Of a DNA stretch of 64,000 nt, positions 9,880-60,413 are shown one piece after another. Within the stretch, counting starts at the first letter, position 1, and each line of letters begins with the position of its first letter. The DNA is from a virus, in IMG/VR virus record IMGVR_UViG_3300020183_000012, positions 82,720-146,719 of that record; one strand, 5' to 3'. The notes under the pieces are model-generated. The model did no database searches. It saw nothing but the letters and a program-made list of their open reading frames with translations, and was not told the origin of the DNA. The position numbers and the translations under genes were made by a program.

Positions 9880-10140
9880 TGCGGACTCGTCTGAGCGAGT
9901 ATAAACAGGGTATTAGGCTCAGAGCGGCAGGGAAACCTGCTTTACCGCCTCCCACGCCATGCAGAAAGTCCGGACTTTCAGCACCGCGTTCCAACTGTGG
10001 TGAATGCGCAGCCGCAGGGGAGAAAGAGCGTCGGCATCCTTCCCTCGCTCAAGGTGTTAAAAAGGGTGCGAACGGAACCCACCGCAGCCCCACTAGACCC
10101 AAAGAGGAGAAATTCTCGCGGGAAAGGTGGGGCTGTGCGT
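9880..10140 (+). ncRNA. Structured non-coding RNA, about 260 nt, partly RNase P-like
   Basis: There is no credible ORF, but stems are abundant: ACTCG/CGAGT at the 5' end, GCGG-CAGG-GAAA-CCTG with closing CCGC, the 16-base palindrome GAAAGTCCGGACTTTC at 9964-9979, and a long 3' stem GCAGCCCCAC/GTGGGGCTG. GAAAGTCCGG resembles the bacterial RNase P RNA P4 strand, and AAAAAGGGTGCGAACGGAACC resembles its P10/P11 region. I could not identify the matching 3' P4 strand (ACAGAACCCGG), so RNase P identity is only a possibility. Ends are inferred from promoter copy 16 and the next promoter copy at 10147. Confidence 0.55.
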
Positions 10141-57879: not shown

Positions 57880-58770
57880 ATGATTAAAAAATCTCAATCA
57901 AACCAAGACTTAATTTCAAAAGTACAGACATTAATAGAAAAATCTGCACTGCCACAAAATGAAAAAATAGAAGTAATAAGATTAATTGGACAATATATAT
58001 CTGGACAAATAAACCAGGGTGTATTTATGTCAAATAGATCGATAGCCACATTGAGAGCAGATCCATCAATGAATGTATTAATGACAGAAATACATAATGA
58101 AAGGCAAAAAAATCTTCAAGAGCAAAGAGATAATCAGCAAAGAGAATCAACAACACAGTCTCAGGCGTACTCTTTAGAAAGAGTAAATCAACAAAGAAGA
58201 GAAAATGGCTTACCTGAATTTAAAACATACGAAGAGGCTATGTCTCATAGAGAAAATGAAAATAAAAAACACAAAGATGCAGTAAAAAATCTTTATAGAT
58301 TTATAGCAAATGGAGACGGAGACGCAATATTGGAATCTGGAGCAACATATGTTCAGGTGAAAGAGGCAATAGACAACATCATTAATAGATCTCCAAGTCC
58401 AAAGGGATTTGATGATTCAGATCATCATTTAGAAGGCGTCTCGGAATATTTAAGAAGCATGTATGGAATACTTGATTCGAATGAAAAAGTACATTCTTTT
58501 TTTATTAATGCAATAATGGCTTATCATTCAAGAAAGGCAAACATAAAAAGCAGAAACGAACAAGAGCGTCAATCAAAAATTGATGAAGCCCATGCAAAAA
58601 GAAGAGAAAACATGGCAAGACAAACAGAGCTATCTTCTGATAGAACAAGTTTAAATGAATCTAGAAATAGAGAAAGAGATTCCAGGATGTCAAGAGTTGA
58701 CCAAGCTGCAGCAAGAAATAGAGGAAGAACAAATTCTAATTTCTCTAGAAATAATCAATTCTTTAACTAA
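57880..58770 (+). CDS. Charged helical protein, 296 aa
   Basis: Long charged coiled-coil-like regions (NERQKNLQEQRDNQQRESTTQSQAYSLERVNQQRREN, SRNEQERQSKIDEAHAKRRENMARQTEL) and a basic Arg/Ser-rich C terminus (NRGRTNSNFSRNNQFFN). No enzymatic motif; possible scaffold or virion protein. The terminator at 58781 follows. Confidence 0.65.
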   Translation: MIKKSQSNQDLISKVQTLIEKSALPQNEKIEVIRLIGQYISGQINQGVFMSNRSIATLRADPSMNVLMTEIHNERQKNLQEQRDNQQRESTTQSQAYSLERVNQQRRENGLPEFKTYEEAMSHRENENKKHKDAVKNLYRFIANGDGDAILESGATYVQVKEAIDNIINRSPSPKGFDDSDHHLEGVSEYLRSMYGILDSNEKVHSFFINAIMAYHSRKANIKSRNEQERQSKIDEAHAKRRENMARQTELSSDRTSLNESRNRERDSRMSRVDQAAARNRGRTNSNFSRNNQFFN

Positions 58771-58780
58771 TAGTATTAAA

Positions 58781-58823
58781 ACAAATAAAAAAAGACGGTT
58801 TTTAGGCCGTCTTTTTTATTTGT
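58781..58823. terminator. Bidirectional intrinsic terminator
   Basis: ACAAATAAAAAAAGACGG pairs almost perfectly with CCGTCTTTTTTATTTGT around a short TTTTTAGG loop. A- and T-runs flank both sides, so it serves the + strand gene at 57880 and the minus-strand cluster ending near 58837. Confidence 0.9.
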
Positions 58824-58836
58824 TTTTACTATTTTA

Positions 58837-58968
58837 TCAGAAGCCTCTTTGTTTTTGCCTTTCAGCTAGTTGTGCTGGAGTAAGAGAGGCATCTGTACCT
58901 GGAGCTGGTGTTGGCCTTATTCTAGAATAAGGATTTCCCCTTGCTGGGTAAACTGTTTCTGCTCCCTA
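58837..58968 (-). other. In-frame extension past a TAG stop, 43 codons
   Basis: Downstream of the TAG ending the 58966-59952 gene, the same frame stays open: GAETVYPARGNPYSRIRPTP, then APGTDASLTPAQLAERQKQRGF, ending TGA at 58837. This is 14 bases before the terminator stem. The composition continues the preceding protein's style. Either stop-codon readthrough, a mutation or a sequencing error. Confidence 0.55.
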
Positions 58969-59952
58969 TGGCGCATCAGGACCTGGACCAGGTCCTTCTT
59001 CTGCTGTGGCAGGAGCGGCTGCAGGAGCGGCTGCAGGAGCGGCTGCTGCTGGGGCAGGAGAGGCTGAAACGGATTTAGGTGCTTGTAGTTTTCCCATAAG
59101 CGCCTGTCCTTCTTGTGTCATAAGATCCATTTCAAACCATCCGTACCCATCCTTAATTACGGGGGTGTAAATGTAAAAACCAACTTTGCCCTCATTCTCA
59201 TCAGAACCACCATCATTTGCAAGATTTGTAAGGGCAGTTGGTCCATAAACAATATATGCTGGAGCTAAGGCTGGTGTTGGACCATATGTCTCCTGCTCTC
59301 CCTCATCGTTTTCAAAGACCTCTTGCTTAAGTCTAAAATTTGCAGAAGAAACCCTATATGATTCTTTCATTTTTGATTCAGCAGAAGTTGCTACTACTGT
59401 TCTTCCGCTATAAGCGTATGGTAATATAAACTGCATTTCTTCTTCATTTGCTGGTTCAGTTACTGCAGCTCCACCTCTTCTTGGCGACATCTGTGGAACA
59501 TTGGAACCAATAAGAAGAGCTACCATATAATCTGCTTTTGCTGTAACCTCAAATATGCCTCCATTTGGTATGGATTTGACTACTCCTACCTGGCTAGACT
59601 CTTGTTGCACTTGCTGTGCTGCTGGGGCTGTACCACCTTGTGCTGCTGGGGAAGACGCAGCTCCACCACCAGTAGCTCCGCCACCAGAAGCTCCGCCACC
59701 AGAAGCTCCGCCACCAGCAGCTCCGCCACCAGCAGCTCCGCCACCAGCAGCTCCGCCACCAGCAGCTCCACCACCAGTAGCTCCACCACCAGTAGATGCA
59801 CTTTGTGCTGCAGAATTTGCAGCAGCAGCAGGTGCCTGTGGGGAAGAAGGAGGAGTTTGAGCTGTTTTAAAATCAGAAAAACCTCCTATAAGGTTTTTAA
59901 TTGCATCAGATTCATTTTGTAACTGAGCTTGTTTTTTAAGATTAAATTTCAT
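58966..59952 (-). CDS. Gly/Ala-rich repeat protein, possible virion protein, 328 aa
   Basis: N terminus MKFNLKKQAQLQNESDAIKN, then FSDFKTAQTPP (both tag-like). Residues 50-100 are tandem GGGA(A/S/T) repeats encoded by a 12-base DNA repeat (59670-59790). A folded, beta-rich domain follows (GIFEVTAKADYMVALLIGSNVP, GKVGFYIYTPVIKDGYGWFEMDLM). The tail is Pro/Ala-rich and ends GPGPGPDAP at a TAG, beyond which the frame continues open. Confidence 0.75.
   Translation of the reverse strand: MKFNLKKQAQLQNESDAIKNLIGGFSDFKTAQTPPSSPQAPAAAANSAAQSASTGGGATGGGAAGGGAAGGGAAGGGAAGGGASGGGASGGGATGGGAASSPAAQGGTAPAAQQVQQESSQVGVVKSIPNGGIFEVTAKADYMVALLIGSNVPQMSPRRGGAAVTEPANEEEMQFILPYAYSGRTVVATSAESKMKESYRVSSANFRLKQEVFENDEGEQETYGPTPALAPAYIVYGPTALTNLANDGGSDENEGKVGFYIYTPVIKDGYGWFEMDLMTQEGQALMGKLQAPKSVSASPAPAAAAPAAAPAAAPATAEEGPGPGPDAP
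59670..59795 (-). repeat. Tandem 12-base repeats coding for GGGA units
   Basis: About ten near-identical copies of a GGTGGCGGAGCT-type unit on the coding strand, giving (GGGA)n with T and S variants. Prone to expansion and contraction. Confidence 0.85.
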
Positions 59953-59972: not shown

Positions 59973-60413
59973 TTAAAAAGATGGAGTCCTTTGTGATCTT
60001 CCACTAGATTGACGAGCTGCACCCGGTTTAGACGGTCCTTTTTTGCCTCCGCTTGGATCAAAAGTTCCCATGTCAAATTGTCCAGGAGCTTTTTCTCTTT
60101 CCATTGCTCTTAAATTATTTAAATTAATCTCTCTTACTTCTTCAAGATCTTCAATCAGGGCTTGCATGTTTGGCGCATAATCAGCGTCAAGATACTGAAA
60201 GGCTTGAATTGAATTCTTTAAATACTGAACCCATTGTCCGTTTGTGCTAGACCCATCTCCGTATACAAGAGTAAATATCTGTTTTGCTCTGTCAAGATTC
60301 AAACTTCTAAGTGCAGTATCATTAGTAGAAAACCATCCAGCATCTTCGTACTGTGGTGCTTCTTGAGCTGTTTTAACTTTCCATTGACCGTTTTCAATCT
60401 CATATTTATCCAT
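59973..60413 (-). CDS. Tagged hypothetical protein, 146 aa
   Basis: Near the N terminus WKVKTAQEAPQYEDAGWF carries the tag-like K-T-A-Q. The middle is helical (FQYLDADYAPNMQALIEDLEEVREINLNNLRAMERE). The C terminus is basic and low complexity (GGKKGPSKPGAARQSSGRSQRTPSF). Fits a small virion protein; lies between two likely structural genes. Confidence 0.65.
   Translation of the reverse strand: MDKYEIENGQWKVKTAQEAPQYEDAGWFSTNDTALRSLNLDRAKQIFTLVYGDGSSTNGQWVQYLKNSIQAFQYLDADYAPNMQALIEDLEEVREINLNNLRAMEREKAPGQFDMGTFDPSGGKKGPSKPGAARQSSGRSQRTPSF

Follow-up and report, generated by a model that had tools for sequence, protein, structure and literature searches.

A minus-strand gene towards the end of the window, i.e., of the 64 kb of DNA analysed here, which are the final 64 kb of a linear virus record of 146,719 bases, closes at an in-frame amber codon that we attribute, with a probability of about two in three, to a lineage-specific nonsense change in a linker, giving a protein without its tail. 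The homologue in a relative runs without a stop through this position into homologous sequence, and TAG truly terminates genes in the phage that carries it.

The gene and the open frame beyond its stop

The open reading frame (58966..59952, minus strand) starts at an ATG at 59952, ends at a TAG at 58968..58966, encodes 328 aa and has a high codon-usage score. From its N terminus the protein has a conserved block, then the GGGA-repeat linker, a core of ~175 residues, a second linker rich in Ala and Pro, and a short tail, with the GGGA linker encoded by nine copies of a 15-bp tandem repeat (59657..59792, minus strand). The TAG (context CCA-TAG-GGA) lies in the Ala/Pro-rich linker, a variable, poorly conserved and flexible stretch between core domain and C-terminal tail, and a truncation at this point spares the core. 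Beyond it the frame stays open on the minus strand for 42 codons (58840..58965), comprising the rest of the linker and a conserved tail, PGTDASLTPAQLAERQKQRGF, the whole extension reading GAETVYPARGNPYSRIRPTPAPGTDASLTPAQLAERQKQRGF. The original stop is a tandem TGA TAA (58834..58839, minus strand; TGA 58839..58837, adjacent TAA 58836..58834). An open frame past the TAG had been predicted, and was found; the predicted length of 43 codons includes one stop codon.

Downstream lies a bidirectional intrinsic terminator (58788..58817), common to this gene and a convergent neighbour on the plus strand (57880..58770); both occupy the same place in the relative. The hairpin starts ~10-20 nt past the TGA, the exact distance varying with the share of the A/T stem that one includes, and this fits the 14 bases given in the original prediction. 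The upstream neighbour (59973..60413, minus strand) is syntenic in the relative and in a further contig, L010. An 18-bp perfect palindrome, CCTTATTCTAGAATAAGG, is present in the extension at 58915-58932, 33 nt past the TAG, and absent from the relative.

The extension holds no in-frame ATG, GTG or TTG, which rules out re-initiation after the TAG and, together with the single open reading frame in the relative, a separate in-frame gene. Its length by itself is not significant: an open run of 43 codons has a chance of ~0.054 at this base composition, and runs at least this long follow the stop in 24 of the 159 long open reading frames of the genome, several of them plainly being in-frame neighbouring genes. 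By codon usage the extension has a positive score (9.5 bits), which eight others exceed; the other high-scoring in-frame extensions resemble neighbouring genes, and one that was read out has its own ATG. It is homology, as judged by sequence comparison, that makes the observation real.

The description of the gene as virion-like found no support: no match to the protein was obtained among PHROGs, Pfam or PDB sequences, and AlphaFold, run on two or three sequences, gave a pLDDT of 34 with unusable models of both the whole protein and the core. The virion-protein label is a guess. Elsewhere in the phage record, an M-(x)-NWYK-x-A/S-like motif starts at least 10 different-looking proteins (G000: 37252, 44430, 52323, 53786, 55306, 102108, 102557, 113042, 118440 and 127678), several of which also occur in the record of the relative; those inside the window include 19389, 19838, 30323, 35721 and 44959. 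This N-terminal motif is possibly a short targeting or packaging signal.

A relative with the uninterrupted gene

The relative (IMGVR 3300044641_010242; L003) shares ~81% DNA identity with this phage over the longest aligned stretch, 25.7 kb, and carries the gene in a syntenic position, with a core that is 84% identical and no stop at the site of the TAG. Its frame continues through an APAAAPAAAP linker to the tail PGTDDSLSPQELAERQKTRGF, where the TAG-bearing phage has PGTDASLTPAQLAERQKQRGF, and closes immediately ahead of the shared terminator. The uninterrupted protein aligns across the TAG of the window as a single tblastn alignment, and the tail of the extension matches it with an E value of 1.7e-6. 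Among 49 orthologous pairs from the two phages, this gene alone has homologous coding sequence on the far side of a stop. Since gene, tail and terminator all recur in the relative and the stop does not, the tail represents ancestral coding sequence; to judge from these alignments, the gene family includes a long form with a conserved tail. The prediction that a mutated stop had shortened an originally longer gene is thus supported, and the homologue extends beyond the position of the TAG.

Scans of viral contigs with the protein, its profile, the core, tail peptides and three neighbour genes recovered the full gene in only two records, and L010 holds the first 89 residues only. No match was obtained in a scan of genome contigs or a search of phage records, and the gene is absent from the records of 18 more distant relatives of a neighbour gene. 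One extra contig from a pattern scan with the tail DNA (L038) encodes an unrelated protein and was rejected as a chance match. We infer the direction of the change, from sense codon to TAG, from a comparison that has no outgroup; L003 may instead have lost a TAG already present in the ancestor.

Truncation or readthrough at the amber codon

A truncation would have begun with a single-base nonsense change, or with a stop made by turnover of the Ala/Pro linker, in this phage lineage. The main product would now be the protein of 328 aa, with N-terminal block and core domain kept and the tail lost, and the remaining 42 codons would be either a recent relic, left as an untranslated 3' stretch ahead of the terminator, or translated only by background leakage. 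The truncated protein would presumably be sufficient for the phage.

What counts against truncation is that the tail is not visibly decayed. It contains no second stop or frameshift and differs from the tail of the relative by 13 bases in 63 nt (21 alignable codons), distributed 4/4/5 over the codon positions. The corresponding counts for the core are 22/12/73, and the lower third-position share in the tail (Fisher P 0.06) hints at relaxation, if at anything. Five of the 21 residues differ, an ordinary count for the C-termini of this phage pair (29 other genes average 4.1 residue differences over their last 21 codons, range 0-10), and the tail was therefore protein-coding during much of the time in which the two lineages diverged. 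For 13 base changes, a number of amino-acid changes as low as this has a probability of ~0.007, summed over both lineages. Ordinary coding constraint of this kind would fit either a recent stop or continued translation and cannot separate the two.

Continued translation is the basis of the strongest alternative, namely that the stop is leaky or programmed, so that termination at the TAG yields most copies and the rest, a minority, gain the ancestral tail, as in the A1 protein of Qbeta. We consider this unlikely. The frame that is intact up to the old stop and terminator and the coding-level constraint on the tail are what one would see under readthrough, and the RNA directly past the TAG is more stably folded than most shuffled versions of it (z -1.88, 9/200). 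However, this stretch was picked after the fact, its stem begins at the first base past the stop and would be melted there by the ribosome, and a longer stretch does little better than shuffles (z - 0.97); RNA folding past the stop is at best suggestive of a signal. The codon-position pattern of the tail, described above, speaks if anything against readthrough, and the lack of a suppressor tRNA among the tRNA genes found also counts against it. Readthrough would be expected to conserve both stop and extension, whereas here the extension is conserved and the stop is absent from the only diverged relative found. Of the original prediction, which offered readthrough or a mutated stop, the second half is upheld by the homologue and the first is left without support, though not refuted: the search found no suppressor tRNA, the stop is not conserved in the only relative, and the RNA gave no compelling signal.

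Some low-level readthrough may occur, and leakiness could be the reason why a successful population tolerates a stop in its consensus. That this dsDNA phage employs a leaky UAG in a flexible linker so that a minority of the protein copies display an ancestral C-terminal peptide, having passed from all-long to mixed, is more doubtful still. Were readthrough shown, Qbeta A1 would gain a simple counterpart in a dsDNA phage, one that can be compared with an all-long homologue. In Qbeta A1 an in-frame stop is likewise followed by an open extension, with a proline-rich linker before the extra part (PMC8067240). The two differ in that the Qbeta stop is a UGA, read as Trp about 1 time in 15, whereas here a UAG is followed by G; in that the A1 extension has a folded domain, whereas here it is of 42 residues; and in that A1 is needed for infection, whereas the present case is known from sequence alone and its stop is not conserved in the relative.

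TAG as a stop codon and the form of the gene family

TAG terminates 17 of the 145 predicted genes of this phage, and in orthologous pairs TAG and TAA interchange at the same C-terminal residue (e.g., at 109974, 115456, 119162 and 130060), which shows that TAG does terminate here, as the original prediction had stated. This bears on the idea that TAG is decoded as an amino acid through host or phage amber suppression, in the manner of the late recoding of code 15. In crAss-like phages with that code, TAG is reassigned in structural genes late in infection, and such late-gene recoding is known in some large phages (PMC9523058). The likeness is that a large phage has a gene with a TAG in frame, but here TAG regularly terminates genes at conserved ends, in both the phage and its relative, no other real gene is interrupted by TAG in the 45 kb compared, and none of the 16 tRNA genes found, alongside one tmRNA, in the 146.7 kb record, a linear fragment, has the CTA anticodon of an amber suppressor. 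We therefore regard recoding as very improbable.

The tmRNA (tag DNYQFNSYRIGFTQFRLAA) adjoins the cluster of tRNA genes in the phage record (L005 17732-18098; G000:C1:37732-38098). A Pistol ribozyme (55.6 bits) was also recorded at 9885-9946 of the window. Over ~40 kb (G000:C1 about 61.6-102 kb, i.e., from the start of the window to ~19 kb) few open reading frames match the remainder of the phage in codon usage, and this stretch is not a chimera of one assembly, because it is also present in a second assembly.

That second assembly (IMGVR 3300020220_000019) comes from one of 24 Lake Tanganyika metagenomes, sample 3300020220 (PMC8245535). It carries the same TAG and shows 24 mismatches to the record of the window over about 91 kb, with one difference in the local 10 kb, located within the GGGA repeat; both TAG-bearing assemblies represent one near-clonal population. 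A sequencing or assembly error is scarcely credible, because, although metagenome assemblies may carry errors beside repeats, the same base recurs in this second assembly, which differs from that of the window at other positions.

A nonsense change in the linker thus remains our preferred reading. An intact homologue through the site, homologous sequence downstream and a standard code are what this gene shares with ordinary C-terminal nonsense truncations, and it is unlike them in that its tail is without visible decay yet. Unless protein data differ, the case is an ordinary one. For annotation, it means that the longer form of the family is of ~350-370 aa and that the copy in this strain is probably a truncated one.
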